A program made the translations under genes and the position numbers. A stretch of 55,601 nucleotides of DNA from a virus. The DNA lies in IMG/VR virus record IMGVR_UViG_3300032291_000616, positions 1-55,601 of that record; one strand, written 5' to 3'. Positions 24,649 through 40,443 of the stretch are shown piece by piece. A model generated the notes under the pieces. That model had not been told where the DNA came from, made no database searches, and worked only from the letters and a program-made list of their open reading frames with translations. How positions within the stretch are numbered: position 1 is the first letter of the stretch; each line of letters begins with the position of its first letter.

Positions 24649-24825
24649 ATGCACGACGAAGGTGAAGCACATCAAGCGATGCTTGAACGAATGCAAATGC
24701 TCGAGGAAGCCCTTCACCGGGCCGAGACGGGCGTTGCTACCGAAGACGACTGGAGCGTCATCCGCTTTGAGTGCGGTGCGCCCAGAAGTCAAACTTTGAA
24801 ACCTGAAATTGAATGGAGTGAATGA
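24649..24825 (+). CDS. Small early protein (58 aa)
   Basis: 58 aa, MHDEGEAHQAMLERMQMLEE..., an acidic amphipathic helix followed by ATEDDWSVIRFECG. First gene of the rightward operon, with leader GAAAGCGAATT ATG and no AGGAGG. Its TGA overlaps the next ATG. The coding call rests on this overlap and on the shared leader. Function unknown. Confidence 0.6.
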   Translation: MHDEGEAHQAMLERMQMLEEALHRAETGVATEDDWSVIRFECGAPRSQTLKPEIEWSE

Positions 24826-25487
24826 TGGCTTTGATAGCGAAAGAAAGCGGCGGTGGAAGTTTTACCCCTGTGCCGCAGGGTATGCACCTCGCACGGTGCT
24901 ACAGGGTGGTTGATCTGGGCACCCAGAAGTCCGAGTACCTTGGAACCGTGAAGCACCTGCCAAAGGTGATGTTGCAGTTTGAAGTTCATGGCGAGGATGA
25001 GAACGGCAAAAAAATCGAAACGGCCAAAGGTGAGCCAATGTCGATCAGCAAGAACTTCACGCTGTCGTTGGCTGAGAAAGCCACCCTCCGCAAAGACTTG
25101 CAGACATGGCGTGGTCGTGAGTTCACCGCAGAAGAACTGCGCGGGTTCGAACTCAAAAACGTGTTGGGTGCATGGGCAATGATCTCCGTGATCAAAGCCG
25201 CCGGTACCAACGGCAAGGAGTACACCAACATTGCGGCAATCATGGCCGTGCCACCAGCCATCAAGAAGGCGGGTCTGCCAGAGGGCTTCAACGCTCTTGG
25301 CATCTTCTCGATTGATGAGCCTGACATGACCATGTTCGACACCTTCAGCGATGGCCTGAAGCAAAAAATTCAGGGTTCGCCTGAATGGCAAAACCGCTCT
25401 GGCGGTGATGCACAACGCCAGACTGGCGGTCAATCGAACGGAGGCGGCTCCGGCTTTGACGACATGGATGACGACATTCCTTTTTAA
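24822..25487 (+). CDS. Single-stranded DNA-binding-like protein
   Basis: 221 aa. The first 160 residues are a mostly beta body with KVMLQFEVHGEDENGKKIE and FTLSLAEKATLRKDLQTWRG, a form I associate with phage SSB-like replication proteins. The C-terminus is a Gly/Gln/Ser linker followed by the acidic tip DDMDDDIPF, which strongly recalls the bacterial SSB tip (DDDIPF) that recruits repair and replication proteins. It should protect ssDNA and link the nuclease at 27954 to host factors. Confidence 0.72.
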   Translation: MMALIAKESGGGSFTPVPQGMHLARCYRVVDLGTQKSEYLGTVKHLPKVMLQFEVHGEDENGKKIETAKGEPMSISKNFTLSLAEKATLRKDLQTWRGREFTAEELRGFELKNVLGAWAMISVIKAAGTNGKEYTNIAAIMAVPPAIKKAGLPEGFNALGIFSIDEPDMTMFDTFSDGLKQKIQGSPEWQNRSGGDAQRQTGGQSNGGGSGFDDMDDDIPF

Positions 25488-25838: not shown

Positions 25839-26669
25839 ATGGCGTACGACGACGACACCCCCATCCACGACACTGAAGCGGCGCTGATCGCTGGTCAAAA
25901 CCTTGGTGATGCAAAGATCATCAACGGCCACCCTTATGCCATCGTGCCCGAAGGTTCAGCCTTCCGTGACCTCGAGGAACTGCTGACTGCGCCTCTGCGC
26001 CGCAAGGGGAATACCTCCCTGCGCGATGCTGAGTCGTTCTGCCGGTTTGTCTCCCAAGAGACCACCTCCAGCACTCGCATCTACGGCAACATCAAAGAAG
26101 GGCGCTTCCGTGCGGTCTTCAATGACAACCGTGGCGGCGAAGAAGAGGGTCTGCCTATCGCTGGCTGGCGCGACTACACCGCGACCTACACCTGCCCCCA
26201 ATCTGTTGAGTGGGCAACGTGGAAGGCCAAGAGCGGTCACCAAATGAATCAGGTGGCATTTGCCCAGTTCATCGAAGACAACTTGCCGGACATCGCCCAG
26301 CCGCCTGCGGCTGAGATGCTGGAGGTGTCGCGCACTCTCGAGGCGAAAAAGAAAGTCAACTTCGCGCAGGGCATTCGCTTGTCGAACGGCCAAAACGAAC
26401 TGACCTACGAAGAGCAGGTTGAGGGCACCGCAGGCAAAGGGAAGTTCAAGATTCCCGAAGAGTTCACCATCGGCATCCCGGTGCTAGAAGGTGGCCTGCG
26501 TTACGCGGTGCAGTGTCGTCTGCGCTATCGCATCGCTGATGGCGGTCAACTGACCATGTGGTACGAGATCATTCGTGCCCACAAGATCATGGAAGACGCC
26601 ATCAATGCGGTGTGGAAAGACATCGAAGAGAACACCGGCAAGAAAATTTTCAACGGCGACCCCGCCTAA
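25839..26669 (+). CDS. DUF2303 (YfdQ-like) protein
   Basis: 276 aa. YAIVPEGSAFRDLEELL, FCRFVSQETTSSTRIYGN, AVFNDNRGGEEEGLPIAGWRDY, QVAFAQFIEDNLPDIAQP and the closing RYRIADGGQLTMWYEIIRAH follow the DUF2303 family (E. coli prophage YfdQ). Family function is unknown, though it travels with phage recombination genes. The start is two bases after the preceding stop. Confidence 0.85.
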   Translation: MAYDDDTPIHDTEAALIAGQNLGDAKIINGHPYAIVPEGSAFRDLEELLTAPLRRKGNTSLRDAESFCRFVSQETTSSTRIYGNIKEGRFRAVFNDNRGGEEEGLPIAGWRDYTATYTCPQSVEWATWKAKSGHQMNQVAFAQFIEDNLPDIAQPPAAEMLEVSRTLEAKKKVNFAQGIRLSNGQNELTYEEQVEGTAGKGKFKIPEEFTIGIPVLEGGLRYAVQCRLRYRIADGGQLTMWYEIIRAHKIMEDAINAVWKDIEENTGKKIFNGDPA

Positions 26670-26685: not shown

Positions 26686-27054
26686 ATGGAAAACAAAGTG
26701 ACCCTCGAGTCCATCGTGCAAAAGATCGTCGGCGAGATGTACATCGTCCTGCCAGACGGTCGCACCACAGTTTGTATGCTGACCATGAAGAACGGCTACA
26801 CCATCAAAGGTCTGTCGGCCTGCGTGGATGCATCGAACTTCGACATGAACATCGGTCGCAAGATCGCGTTCGAAGACGCCATCCGGCAAATCTGGCCCCT
26901 TGAAGGCTACCTGCTGGCCGAGCGCCTCTTCTGGGAGCGTGCAGTGCCCGTGGCCTCAAACCCGCCTGAAGCACCTAAAAAAGTCCACTGGACTCAGACC
27001 CCTGAAGGCAAGAAAAAAATGGCCGCACGCAAGCGCAAAGGGGCAGGCAAATGA
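26686..27054 (+). CDS. Phage Gp49-family protein
   Basis: 122 aa. The segment NGYTIKGLSACVDASNFDMN followed by IGRKIAFEDAIRQIWPLEGYLL is the signature of the phage Gp49-like family (PF13876), of unknown function and common in early regions. The tail is basic (KKKMAARKRKGAGK), compatible with nucleic-acid binding. ATG at 26686 follows AAAAAGGAGAGCGGCA, a leader identical to that of the 20270 microprotein. Confidence 0.85.
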   Translation: MENKVTLESIVQKIVGEMYIVLPDGRTTVCMLTMKNGYTIKGLSACVDASNFDMNIGRKIAFEDAIRQIWPLEGYLLAERLFWERAVPVASNPPEAPKKVHWTQTPEGKKKMAARKRKGAGK

Positions 27055-27578
27055 AACGCTACCTCGGAACCAAGGAAATCAATGCCCGCCCCATGAGCCG
27101 TCAGGAATACAACGTCCTGCGCGGCTGGGAACTGCCATCGAATGAGAATGGCGCTGACCCCGGCTACCTCGTCGAATATCTCGACGGCGGATCACCAAAC
27201 CATCCTGACTTTCAGGGCTACATCTCGTGGTCGCCCGTTGGGGTGTTTGAGCGGGCCTACAAGCCTACCGACGGCATGACCTTCGGTTTGGCCCTCGAGT
27301 GCCTCAAACGTGGCCTCAAAGTGGCGCGGAAGGGCTGGAATGGCAAGGGGATGTGGCTATCCCTTTCTGGCGATGGATTCGCTGGCGAGACGCCACTGGT
27401 GCGCTACGTCGACCACGACAAGTTCTGGTCGAAGAACAACAGCGACTTCGCTGTCGAACAGGGTGGCTGTGCCAAAGTGTTGCCATGCATCACCATGAAA
27501 ACCGCAGACGACTGCATCCTCATGGGTTGGCTTGCATCTCAGTCCGATATGTTGGCTGAAGATTGGGTGGTGGTGTGA
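27051..27578 (+). CDS. Tad2-type (DUF2829) anti-Thoeris protein with N-terminal domain
   Basis: 175 aa in two parts. Residues 1-71 (KRYLGTKEINARPMSRQEYN...GYISWSPVGVFERAY) form a widespread phage domain of unknown role. Residues 76-175 match DUF2829: MTFGLALECLKRGLKVARKG, WNGKGMWL, LPCITMKTADD and MGWLASQSDMLAEDW. Thoeris anti-defence 2 (Tad2) proteins, which sequester the gcADPR signal made by Thoeris, belong to DUF2829. The signature residues are intact. Early expression in this operon fits a counter-defence role. Activity of this homologue is an inference. Confidence 0.85.
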   Translation: MKRYLGTKEINARPMSRQEYNVLRGWELPSNENGADPGYLVEYLDGGSPNHPDFQGYISWSPVGVFERAYKPTDGMTFGLALECLKRGLKVARKGWNGKGMWLSLSGDGFAGETPLVRYVDHDKFWSKNNSDFAVEQGGCAKVLPCITMKTADDCILMGWLASQSDMLAEDWVVV

Positions 27579-27745
27579 TGGACAGCATCGGCGGACTTCT
27601 GTTTGTCGCGTGGATCGGCCTTGCATGGCTGACCCATGTGATCACCTGCATCAGTGCTGGCAAGTGGCTCTTTCTGCTTGCTGGTGCCATCTTCTTCCCC
27701 ATCGGTTGCGTGCATGGCACCGGTGTTTGGTTTGGGATGTTCTGA
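27578..27745 (+). CDS. Two-span membrane microprotein (55 aa)
   Basis: 55 aa, MDSIGGLLFVAWIGLAWLTH..., with two hydrophobic helices separated by CISAGKW and ending HGTGVWFGMF. ATG overlaps the Tad2-fusion stop by one base and its own stop overlaps the next ATG. It is an early membrane protein; holin function is unlikely because the lysis genes sit at 44.6-46.2 kb. Confidence 0.65.
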   Translation: MDSIGGLLFVAWIGLAWLTHVITCISAGKWLFLLAGAIFFPIGCVHGTGVWFGMF

Positions 27746-27957
27746 TGAAACCAACACCAAAACTGCGCTTTGTGCGCCGCGCTGTGCCAGACAAGACCTT
27801 TGGCGAAAACATCTCTGTCTACAAGCACATCCTCCAGCAATGGTGGGAAGACCCTAGTGTTGTACTGGCCGTGGTTCGGATCGGGCCAAACGGAATACCA
27901 ATCAACGAACACCCCGGTGAATGGCGCGACATACCAATTGAAGAGGAGAACACATGA
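27745..27957 (+). CDS. Small hypothetical protein (70 aa)
   Basis: 70 aa starting MKPTPKLRFVRRAVPDKTFG; ATG at 27745 overlaps the membrane protein stop by one base. Pattern VLAVVRIGPNGIPINEHPGEWRDIP suggests a compact beta unit. Function unknown. Confidence 0.65.
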   Translation: MKPTPKLRFVRRAVPDKTFGENISVYKHILQQWWEDPSVVLAVVRIGPNGIPINEHPGEWRDIPIEEENT

Positions 27958-28715
27958 GCATCACAGCAAAAGAGCCTCGCGCAAGCGAGAGCAACCACTG
28001 GTACACCCGCGACGGCGTGCCACGCTACACCGTGATCGGTGCGAACGGCAAGGAGCGCAACACCACCCTGCGTGACGCCCGCAAAGAGAGTCTGGTGCCC
28101 TCGGTCACCACGGTTCTCAACGTGGCCGCAAAGCCTGCTTTGAACCAGTGGCTACAGCGTCAGGTGCTGTTGGCCGCACTCACCCTGCCACGTCGCACCG
28201 ATGAGCCGGAGGATGATTGGATAGCCCGCATCATGGACGACTCGAAAGAGCAAGGACGCGCCGCCGCCGACCTCGGTACGGACATCCACGCTTCGATCCA
28301 GTCGTTCTATGAAGGCGTGCAGGCCGAGCGCCATCAGGAACACGTCCAAGGTTGCGTGGCCGCGTTGCAGACCCACTTTGGTCATCAAGGCTGGATCGCC
28401 GAGCGTGCATTCGCTCACGAGATTGGCTTCGGTGGCAAGGTTGACTTGCACGCACAAAACATCGTGGCCGACGTCAAGACCAAGGACTTCACCGACCCCG
28501 ACAAGATCGATGCGTACGACGACCACCTCATGCAGTTGTCGGCCTACCGCGTTGGTCTGGGGATGCCCACAGCACGTTGCGCGAACGTCTTCGTCTCACG
28601 CAGTGTGCCCGGTCTGGTAAAAATCATCGAGTGGGATCAAGAAGACCTCGAGCGCGGGTGGCAGATGTTTCATGCACTGCTCACCTTTTGGCAAACAAAA
28701 AACAAGCACAAGTGA
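27954..28715 (+). CDS. RecB-family (PD-(D/E)XK) exonuclease
   Basis: 253 aa. The motif set of RecB/Cas4-like nucleases is visible: LGTDIHASIQ (His112), Glu150 in WIAERAF, GGKVDLHA (Asp164), VADVKTKDF (Asp173, Lys175) and HLMQLSAY (Gln194, Tyr198). It should digest or resect DNA, probably supplying 3' ends for annealing with the SSB-like protein at 24822. There is no Red-beta or RecT gene visible, so the partner could be a host protein or an unrecognised early gene. Confidence 0.82.
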   Translation: MSITAKEPRASESNHWYTRDGVPRYTVIGANGKERNTTLRDARKESLVPSVTTVLNVAAKPALNQWLQRQVLLAALTLPRRTDEPEDDWIARIMDDSKEQGRAAADLGTDIHASIQSFYEGVQAERHQEHVQGCVAALQTHFGHQGWIAERAFAHEIGFGGKVDLHAQNIVADVKTKDFTDPDKIDAYDDHLMQLSAYRVGLGMPTARCANVFVSRSVPGLVKIIEWDQEDLERGWQMFHALLTFWQTKNKHK

Positions 28716-38607: not shown

Positions 38608-39047
38608 TTTTTGGCCTCACGTTTTGGGCCGAGTTTCAAGGTGACACGGTAGCCATCCTTGAGTTTCTCAGCCTTGTATCCCATGCCCTCTTGCGGCGGG
38701 TTGCGCGAGATGGCCTTGAAGATGTTGATGATGGTCGGGTCTTGGAACGTCGTCACCATGGTGTCGAAGCCCATCTTGTATGCGGCTTGCACCCACTCGT
38801 ACGAGTTCTCGAGGTAGTTCCTCGCGGTGTCCGCATTCAGCGCCCGAAAGAATCCGATGCGCTCACGAACGTGGTGCATCACGAAAATGGTATTTCCGGC
38901 GCGGTAGGTACTCGTGCCGGGTTGGTTCATCTCTTCGACAAGAGCGGCAAAAATACTGGCCGCAGGATGAGGAGACTTGGTCTCCTGTGCCGCGATCATC
39001 AAGACCGCCTCATCTTTCAGTTCTTTTTTCTTGCTATCGACCAGCAT
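38604..39047 (-). CDS. GNAT-like acyltransferase of the ACP-KAS cassette
   Basis: 147 aa. The ATG at 39047 sits five bases after GAGGGG and overlaps the synthase stop (TGATG); a GTG one codon upstream is possible. The order is a helical N-terminus (PHPAASIFAALVEEMNQ), a strand TIFVMHHV, a long helix (LENSYEWVQAAYKMGFDTMV), and a last part FQDPTIINIFKAI...YRVTLKLGP. This is compatible with the GNAT fold seen in N-acyltransferases and in T7 gp13-like virion proteins. No acetyl-CoA motif is clear. Linked to ACP and KAS, it could use acyl-ACP as donor; this is inference. Confidence 0.55.
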   Translation of the reverse strand: MLVDSKKKELKDEAVLMIAAQETKSPHPAASIFAALVEEMNQPGTSTYRAGNTIFVMHHVRERIGFFRALNADTARNYLENSYEWVQAAYKMGFDTMVTTFQDPTIINIFKAISRNPPQEGMGYKAEKLKDGYRVTLKLGPKREAKK

Positions 39048-40162
39048 CACAGCCCCTCAAAAATTGCGGCGGAGTAAATGTTTCCCATCCCTGCCGCCAG
39101 ACTCAGGATGTGGCCCTTGGGGGGCGTGACAGATTCCGAAAGGAATACCGAATCGGATTCAGTTCGGTTCTCGATTCCCGGGACGAATCCCTTCTTGATG
39201 TCGTCCAGCAATAGTAGCGTCTCGAGGAGGCCGCTGGAACCCATTGTGTGGCCGATTTTCTGCTTGTAGGAGGTCACGACGACGTCTTTCAAGCCAGACC
39301 CAAGGATGGCGGCTTTCTCCGCCTTGTTGTTCGATACTGTGCCCGTGCCGTGGGCCTTGACGATGCCGATGTCGTGGCGCAAGGTCTTGCTGTGGAAGCA
39401 GGCACCGCCGATAGCCCGGGAAAAGCCCTCGCCGTCCTCGCACTGGCCGATGGCGTTGGTGCTGTTCTCGGAGGCGTTGTAGGCACCCACCAAGCGGGCG
39501 TGTGGGGTGCGCTGAAAGCGCTTGACCAGTCGCTCGTTCTCAAAGACCGCCAGCGCGGCCCCCTGACCCACGTAGAAGCCGCGATTCTTGCTGTCGAAGG
39601 CCGAAGGCTTGACACCGTTCTCGGCTTCGTCCTTGGCCGTCAAAACGGCTTGCGACTCGCCAAAGAACTCCAGCACGGCGTTGGACACACCGTCTTCGAC
39701 CGTCAGGACGATCACGCGGTCAAAGTCGTAGTGCTTCATCAGCACCTCGACATCCATCATCACCTTCAGACTGCTGGCGCAGGCAGAGGCGTCGGTGGTG
39801 ACCATGCCCATCTCGCCGAAGGACTGAGCCGTGCGACCGGCGTAAACCTGTGTCAGCGTGAACGGCAGGAACTTGTAGGTGTACGACAGGCGCGAGTTGT
39901 AGGAGCGTTGTCCGATGCCTGCAAAGTGGGCGTTGCCACCCGCAAGGATGAAGGCAGTCTTGCCGCAGGACTCTTCGCGAAGTTGCTTTGCCAACTCAGG
40001 GTCAAGAACCTTCTCGGCCAACTTGTGAGGGACGTAAAACATCCCGGTCTGGGTGCGCTTGTAGGTCTCAGGGAACCAGTGAACACGCTGTGGGAAAACG
40101 ATGTCGTCGAACAATTCAACATGATTGGTCGAGGCTGTGCGGTAGTGCGTCAGGTAGATCAT
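39047..40162 (-). CDS. Beta-ketoacyl-ACP synthase (KAS, FabF-like)
   Basis: 371 aa. The thiolase-fold triad is complete: Cys128 in TDASACASS, His271 in KAHGTGT and His305 in KIGHTMGSSG, with Lys300 five residues before His305 as in FabF. RGFYVGQGAALAVFE and the C-terminal SLAAGMGNIYSAAIF match the gating and GFGGxNA strands. It is shorter than FabF (about 410) and lacks the usual first Gly-rich strand. It would condense an acyl chain with malonyl units on ACP. It overlaps ACP and GNAT genes by 3-4 bases, so they are translated together. Confidence 0.88.
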   Translation of the reverse strand: MIYLTHYRTASTNHVELFDDIVFPQRVHWFPETYKRTQTGMFYVPHKLAEKVLDPELAKQLREESCGKTAFILAGGNAHFAGIGQRSYNSRLSYTYKFLPFTLTQVYAGRTAQSFGEMGMVTTDASACASSLKVMMDVEVLMKHYDFDRVIVLTVEDGVSNAVLEFFGESQAVLTAKDEAENGVKPSAFDSKNRGFYVGQGAALAVFENERLVKRFQRTPHARLVGAYNASENSTNAIGQCEDGEGFSRAIGGACFHSKTLRHDIGIVKAHGTGTVSNNKAEKAAILGSGLKDVVVTSYKQKIGHTMGSSGLLETLLLLDDIKKGFVPGIENRTESDSVFLSESVTPPKGHILSLAAGMGNIYSAAIFEGL

Positions 40163-40443
40163 GCGATCTCCTTTTGTGCCTCTTCGACCGATGCAGGCTC
40201 CTTGGTTTTGCGCCGCATCAAAAAGTCGTAGACCTCCTGAACGGAGGTCGGGTGGAAATCCTTGGTCTCATCGTCGTCAGGTATGCCGTACAACTCTGTG
40301 AGGTACATGAGCATGATGAGTCCATCAAGACTATCGATGCCGATGTCTTGCAAGGTGTCTTCCATTGAAGTTGCCGCTATCTCGTTTGCGTGGGCTGGTC
40401 GCGCCACTTTCGAGACCATGTTGAATAGTTCTATGAAGTCCAT
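40159..40443 (-). CDS. acpP: Acyl carrier protein
   Basis: 94 aa. GIDSLDGLIMLMYLTELYGI carries the DSL phosphopantetheine site (Ser38) in the right place between helices I and II; the third helix follows TSVQEVYDFLMRR. Length, acidity of the core and helix pattern fit an ACP; the last 15 residues are an extra charged tail. It starts two bases after the stop of the 82-aa gene without a clear AGGAGG, suggesting coupled translation. It needs a phosphopantetheinyl transferase from the host because none is seen here. Confidence 0.87.
   Translation of the reverse strand: MDFIELFNMVSKVARPAHANEIAATSMEDTLQDIGIDSLDGLIMLMYLTELYGIPDDDETKDFHPTSVQEVYDFLMRRKTKEPASVEEAQKEIA

Follow-up and report, generated by a model that had tools for sequence, protein, structure and literature searches.

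Tad2 is a homotetramer with its pockets between protomers, and to our knowledge the Tad2 sponges that have been characterised are single small domains. Their ligands vary: according to the titles of the PDB structures, HgmTad2 was solved with 1',2'-cADPR and cGG, SptTad2 with cGG, SPO1 Tad2 with gcADPR, and ModTad2 with His-ADPR (among the complexes, 8kbk holds cADPR+cGG, 8wjd holds cGG, and 9eib holds hisADPR). The gcADPR pocket is made by the beta1-beta2, beta3-beta4, and beta4-alpha3 loops together with helix alpha3, and a separate dinucleotide site sits in the beta2-beta5 insertion (PMC12043709). 3'3'-cGAMP is not a ligand of SPO1 Tad2 (PMC11722364), and Tad2 proteins with a long insertion do bind dinucleotides (PMC12043709). 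One Tad2 family has been deposited both as HgmTad2 and as the anti-CRISPR protein AcrIIA7 (PDB 9kzr / 8kbi), and the anti-CRISPR name has spread into phage annotations.

The window, which is the whole stretch of DNA that we analysed, is a virus contig of 55.6 kb (55,601 nucleotides) from a metavirome in IMG/VR. Its nearest annotated relative by synteny is MW202545. The gene that we studied belongs to an operon on the plus strand whose first gene encodes a replication initiation protein of the NGO0469 family. The features that we discuss are as follows.

24822..25487, plus strand: phage replication initiation protein, NGO0469 family, same operon (NCBIfam NF046043, 202.5 bits against a cut-off of 75)
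25839..26669, plus strand: DUF2303 protein (PF10065), same operon (E 7e-64)
26686..27054, plus strand: Phage_gp49_66 protein (PF13876; E 8.9e-25)
27051..27578, plus strand: coding sequence for N-domain plus Tad2-like domain (PHROG_872 architecture); open frame with ATG start, 175 aa
27051..27269, plus strand: N-terminal domain, residues 1-73, predicted beta-alpha-beta-beta-alpha with SWSPxxVFxxAY motif (AlphaFold2 alone)
27276..27575, plus strand: Tad2-like domain, residues 76-175 (PF11195, VIA Z to solved Tad2 chains)
27333..27353, plus strand: GWNGKGM beta1-beta2 loop, residues 95-101, 5' border of the exchangeable insert (invariant in 59 homologues)
27354..27527, plus strand: beta2-beta5 insertion and KTADD strand, residues 102-159, class C1 cassette (varies between homologues)
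27528..27566, plus strand: WLASQSDMLAEDW, residues 160-172, beta4-alpha3/alpha3 pocket segment, 3' border of the insert (invariant residues)
27578..27745, plus strand: small ORF of 55 aa (phrog_7319); its start overlaps the stop of the N-domain-Tad2 gene (TGATG)
27954..28715, plus strand: PD-(D/E)XK exonuclease-like protein, same operon (phrog_298, E 7.1e-11)

The four same-strand neighbours (the DUF2303 and gp49_66 genes upstream, the 55-aa ORF and the exonuclease-like gene downstream) overlap or almost touch, and the TGA of the gp49_66 gene shares 4 nt (ATGA) with the ATG of the N-domain-Tad2 gene. The latter would be expressed early, from a replication/recombination operon, and would be translationally coupled to the gp49_66 protein. 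The same gene pair is found in phage N4 (gp48/gp49) and in MW202545. Among the 94 N-Tad2 ORFs that had enough flanking sequence (duplicate loci were kept in this count), 36 are accompanied on the same strand by a gp49_66 gene no more than 1.8 kb away, and it is immediately upstream in 14. We therefore reject a strict partnership: the association is recurrent, not obligatory. A gp49_66-family protein of phage Huey (CDS66; L165 4736-5116) is annotated as "anti-CRISPR protein" and is one residue away from a Gp49 family protein of E. coli 55989 (L240 1905-2285) that is encoded beside an N-domain-Tad2 gene; the label was probably transferred from its neighbour.

The opposite strand of the record carries an Sf6-type terminase small subunit, a portal protein, and tail genes. 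This structural-gene region also encodes a beta-ketoacyl synthase-like protein (39047-40162, minus strand; PF02801, E 9.4e-13). It scores 107.6 bits against TIGR03150 fabF, which is under that model's cut-off, and retains the Cys/His/Lys/His motifs (DASACASS, KAHGTGT, YKQKIGHT). Its gene overlaps by 4 nt the gene for a 94-aa acyl-carrier-like protein (40159-40443, minus strand) with a GIDSLDGL motif and a weak match to PF00550 (E 0.057). In MW202545, the corresponding place is occupied by a synthase gene next to a small gene of similar size. It is surprising to find such a pair within a phage tail module.

The N-domain-Tad2 gene itself belongs to a known family. The whole ORF (27051-27578) matches phrog_872 over residues 1-175 (E 2.5e-59), which is a full-length match to both domains, and chance cannot account for the family match: tblastn matches the protein to 336 phage records, with at least 80% of its length covered in 88 of these, and at least 595 candidate stretches in IMG/VR encode relatives. 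A prior reading of this DNA from its sequence alone (hereafter the sequence-only reading) had described a Tad2-type domain fused to a common phage domain. Both parts are there, but the fusion is not exceptional, as it is the standard architecture of PHROG_872 (for example, N4 gp49). Given PHROG_872, N4, MW202545, and hundreds of relatives, we regard the fusion as an established but uncharacterised architecture.

The assignment of residues 76-175 to DUF2829 was correct. PF11195 (Tad2-like, formerly DUF2829) matches these residues with an E value of 4.8e-23 and 81.9 bits, as compared with a gathering score of 25, and the match spans the entire profile (1-73/73). The motifs on which the assignment had been based (VARKGWNGKG, KTADD, and GWLASQSDMLAEDW) are all found in the ORF, and the GWNGKGM loop sequence occurs just once in the record. 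An AlphaFold2 model of the full-length protein, built with 59 homologues, has a mean pLDDT of 90 and a pTM of 0.66, which implies that each domain is modelled confidently while their relative placement is not. The sequence-only reading had suggested comparing a structure model with Tad2, and the model of the C-terminal domain does superpose on the solved Tad2 chains, with VIA Z of 10.6-12.2 and rmsd of 1.6-3.8 A across 72-95 residues (Z was 12.2 for SptTad2, 11.9 for HgmTad2/AcrIIA7, 11.6 for SPO1 Tad2, and 11.0 for ModTad2). Foldseek matches it to HgmTad2 as well (E 8e-9). PADLOC gave no match for the N-domain-Tad2 protein or its relatives.

Two segments of the predicted pocket are highly conserved. 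R93 and G95-W96-N97-G98-K99-G100-M101 in the beta1-beta2 loop are invariant in 59/59 homologues, as are W160, A162, Q164, D166, L168, D171, and W172 in the beta4-alpha3/alpha3 segment. Both pocket-forming segments are largely common to HgmTad2, SPO1 Tad2, and ModTad2, and the GWNGKGM loop region belongs to the nucleotide pocket of Tad2 (PMC12043709). Loss of the ligand-pocket residues, which the sequence-only reading had named as the observation that would count against it, is not what we see at the level of sequence, because the published pocket segments are retained.

So it is likely that the N-domain-Tad2 protein sequesters some immune nucleotide. The earlier statement that it sequesters gcADPR and so blocks Thoeris was too specific: because the solved Tad2 proteins differ in their ligands and this protein has a long insertion, gcADPR in particular cannot be assumed. 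There are 58 residues between GWNGKGM and WLASQ, and the PF11195 stretch takes up 100 residues for 73 profile columns. The Tad2 domain aligns along 95 of the 101 residues of SptTad2. Within the insertion, the alignment to HgmTad2 and SptTad2 is weak, so the choice of ligand cannot be carried over from these proteins either.

The insertion acts like a cassette that can be exchanged. Among 116 distinct homologues, we could sort the segment between GWNGKGM and WLASQ into 27 clusters. These classes were defined by single linkage at an arbitrarily chosen threshold, and proteins of the window's own class (C1) were retrieved preferentially, so the class counts should not be read as frequencies. The segment is 21 to 61 residues long in the homologues with strict anchors. 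Across the 116 homologues, members of one class share an identity of 0.665 in the part upstream of the insert and members of different classes 0.662, and a tree of the part before the insert requires 36 changes of class, as compared with 50.6 (44-54) if the labels are shuffled. In other words, there is some inheritance of the insert classes and much switching.

The exchange can be seen directly in DNA. For example, two E. coli prophages (L237 and L242) share 96% identity upstream of the gene, 100% in the N-domain, 94% in the C-terminus, and 96% downstream, while their inserts are only 54% identical (shuffled sequences gave a mean of 48% and a maximum of 53%). Two further inserts follow nearly the same N-domain in L240/L241 and in phage Huey (L165). 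Similarly, the IMG/VR stretches L057 and L111 are 96% identical in the N-domain and 98% identical over 1.2 kb downstream, with unrelated inserts between. Megablast gave matches in 43 E. coli genomes, and most of them stopped at or near the insert. From how a review describes a few of the solved proteins, we infer that the insert may govern the choice of ligand in the N-domain-Tad2 proteins. As a side observation, the copy in E. coli strain no107 (L239 1201-1679) is annotated as two overlapping ORFs. It is apparently frameshifted at the border of the insert: the N-domain is intact and the Tad2 part is in another frame.

The N-terminal part was also correctly recognised as a separate phage domain. 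The isolated N-domain is predicted by AlphaFold2 to be compact (pLDDT 90.8), and other phage proteins contain it without Tad2; phrog_9467, phrog_32732, and phrog_18865 have it with other C-terminal partners. Among PDB chains, we found no relative of the N-domain by sequence and none that was significant by fold. Chromodomains reached a VIA Z of only 2.1-2.9, and Foldseek gave no match below E 2.9. We also considered the N-terminal extension of the 158-aa AcrIIA7 chain 9kzr, and the N-domain profile has no match there. Some N-domain proteins are annotated as, or are similar to, decoration proteins (L230 1507-2289 from Pseudomonas phage pPa_SNUABM_DT01 and L232 1498-1707 from Aeromonas phage JELG-KS1), and in CSP3 (L233) an N-domain-crAss001_48 gene lies between the portal and major capsid genes. 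Some N-domain proteins may be associated with the virion.

A search of GTDB genomes with the N-domain alone, and hence without bias from the C-terminus, yielded 55 architectures: about 37 with Tad2, 13 with crAss001_48 (PF21825), 2 with gp49_66 only, and 3 with neither. Phage records add fusions of the N-domain to RyR, a family with reported cADPR sponges and glycosidases (in Pectobacterium phages and Yersinia phage TG1), and to gp49_66 (in crAss-like phages), as well as N-domains of about 70 aa that stand alone. There is even a triple fusion of N-domain, Tad2, and crAss001_48 in one 297-aa ORF (L102 1498-2388). The Tad2 part of this protein has a degraded GWNGANQ loop and an APSQSD helix. The order can vary too, as gp49_66 also precedes the N-domain (L170, L229), and the partners are joined to each other without the N-domain: gp49_66-RyR in phrog_4435 and gp49_66-crAss001_48 in phrog_3934 (the make-up of these two families was inferred from the parts of their profiles that relatives match). 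A tree of the N-domain requires 15 changes between the Tad2 and crAss001_48 labels, as compared with 16.0 (12-17) for shuffled labels, so the choice of partner is close to random relative to the ancestry of the N-domain.

According to a preprint of May 2026 (PMC13232231), 2'/3'cADPR is degraded or sequestered by RyR-domain proteins of phages, and one of these, homologue 7 of a Pectobacterium phage, acts as a sponge in the nanomolar range and protects phage against Thoeris. The assays in that study used isolated R12-like domains, so the N-domain lay outside them. An N-domain-RyR protein occurs in Pectobacterium phages, and it may or may not be homologue 7. Given these results, two recurrent payloads of the N-domain (Tad2 and RyR) act on the same class of signal. 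We also considered whether crAss001_48 might be an Acb2, on account of its helical pattern and its PxHxxR start. The sequence does not support this (hhalign probability 0.2): T4 Vs.4, which is an Acb2, is in PF24729, and the crAss001_48 profile matches no Acb2 chain.

Taken as a whole, we think that this is a modular phage counter-defence protein, one allele of a modular family directed against immune signals, and we give this explanation a probability of roughly 0.7. The C-terminal Tad2 domain would most likely bind and sequester a nucleotide alarm signal and so prevent the activation of an effector; this might be a signal of the cyclic ADP-ribose type that a TIR enzyme produces, or else a cyclic dinucleotide. 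The constant frame (the GWNGKGM loop and the WLASQ-helix) would supply the conserved pocket, and the beta2-beta5 insert, as a recombinationally exchanged cassette, would set which signal is caught. The N-domain would be a general carrier or adaptor, acting through oligomerisation or through binding of a common partner, that is reused on Tad2, RyR, crAss001_48, and gp49_66. The sequence-only reading had proposed that the fusion could target or tune the sponge, which is a guess; reuse of the N-domain on other payloads is easier to reconcile with a carrier or adaptor than with a role that is specific to Tad2. A carrier with exchangeable signal-binding payloads is the simplest reading.

A rival explanation is that the protein is a plain gcADPR sponge, directed against Thoeris, with the N-domain as an incidental appendage that stabilises or oligomerises it. 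The fold and the conserved pocket segments are indeed those of SPO1 Tad2, and the N-domain is constant and compact. Yet the closest solved chains, HgmTad2 and SptTad2, were crystallised with cADPR and/or cGG, another Tad2 binds His-ADPR (9eib), the insert is longer than that of SPO1 Tad2, and the N-domain is also found on payloads other than Tad2, so we consider this quite unlikely. It seems very improbable that the Tad2 domain has drifted, so that it binds a host or phage protein or inhibits Cas9 and no longer sequesters a signal. The closest solved homologue was deposited as AcrIIA7 or "Inhibitor of Type II CRISPR-Cas system," and relatives carry the annotation "anti-CRISPR protein," but the same AcrIIA7 chain was crystallised with 1',2'-cADPR and cGG (8kbj, 8kbk), and across 59 homologues the insert varies but the nucleotide-pocket segments do not.

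A serious rival, though on the whole we doubt it, is that there is modularity without a common function: a generic N-domain was fused to its partners by chance, and only the Tad2 part matters. Regions of small phage genes recombine heavily, the choice of partner is near random on the N-domain tree, and neither crAss001_48 nor gp49_66 has a known function. On the other hand, of the four partner families that recur, Tad2 and RyR are both reported to act against the same class of ADP-ribose immune signals (PMC13232231, PMC12043709), and the partners are also fused to each other in the absence of the N-domain (phrog_4435, phrog_3934). We return to the modular counter-defence protein, which can be extended: the N-domain might mark a whole class of phage anti-signal proteins, with swapped payloads and, at a second level, a Tad2 insert cassette that is exchanged at two conserved motifs. 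In that case, crAss001_48 and gp49_66 would bind or degrade immune nucleotides, an activity that would so far have gone unrecognised. Small phage domains often fuse promiscuously without sharing a pathway, and we hold this extension tentatively, at somewhat short of even odds.

The Tad2 domain here sits in a protein that is modular at two levels. We did not find a description of this two-level modularity in the literature that we searched; the papers on sponge diversity and the primary Tad2 papers were outside our coverage, so an earlier report of insert swapping is possible. Because inserts are interchangeable at one prophage locus, how sponges gain new ligand specificities becomes directly testable, with natural pairs of alleles that differ in the insert and in little else. 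The common N-domain could also serve as a sequence tag for finding further families of signal sponges, and it points to crAss001_48 (PF21825) and gp49_66 (PF13876) as candidates.

How does this protein compare with known systems? The PHROG_872 proteins (Escherichia phage N4 gp49, MW202545) have the same two domains over their full length; the ORF differs from them in sequence, with 79% identity or less to any aligned homologue, and the PHROG has no assigned function. The closest solved chains are HgmTad2/AcrIIA7 (PDB 8kbi-8kbm) and SptTad2 (8wjd), with E values of about 1e-19 and 1e-14 and VIA Z of 11.2-12.2. They share the long beta2-beta5 insertion and the GWLASQ motif with its extra G but are single-domain proteins of about 101-104 aa. 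For AcrIIA7, a Cas9 inhibitor by name, the likeness to the ORF is one of sequence relatedness only. SPO1 Tad2 (8sme/8smf/8smg/8wje) and ModTad2 (9eib) agree with the ORF in fold and in their pocket segments (VIA Z 10.6-11.6), but they have a shorter insertion and lack the N-domain; their ligands are gcADPR and His-ADPR, respectively, as given in the structure titles. Finally, the phage RyR-domain proteins (RyDEP; phrog_18865, Pectobacterium phages) differ from the Tad2 fusion in having an unrelated payload fold, and they carry the same N-domain on a family that degrades or sequesters cADPR signals.
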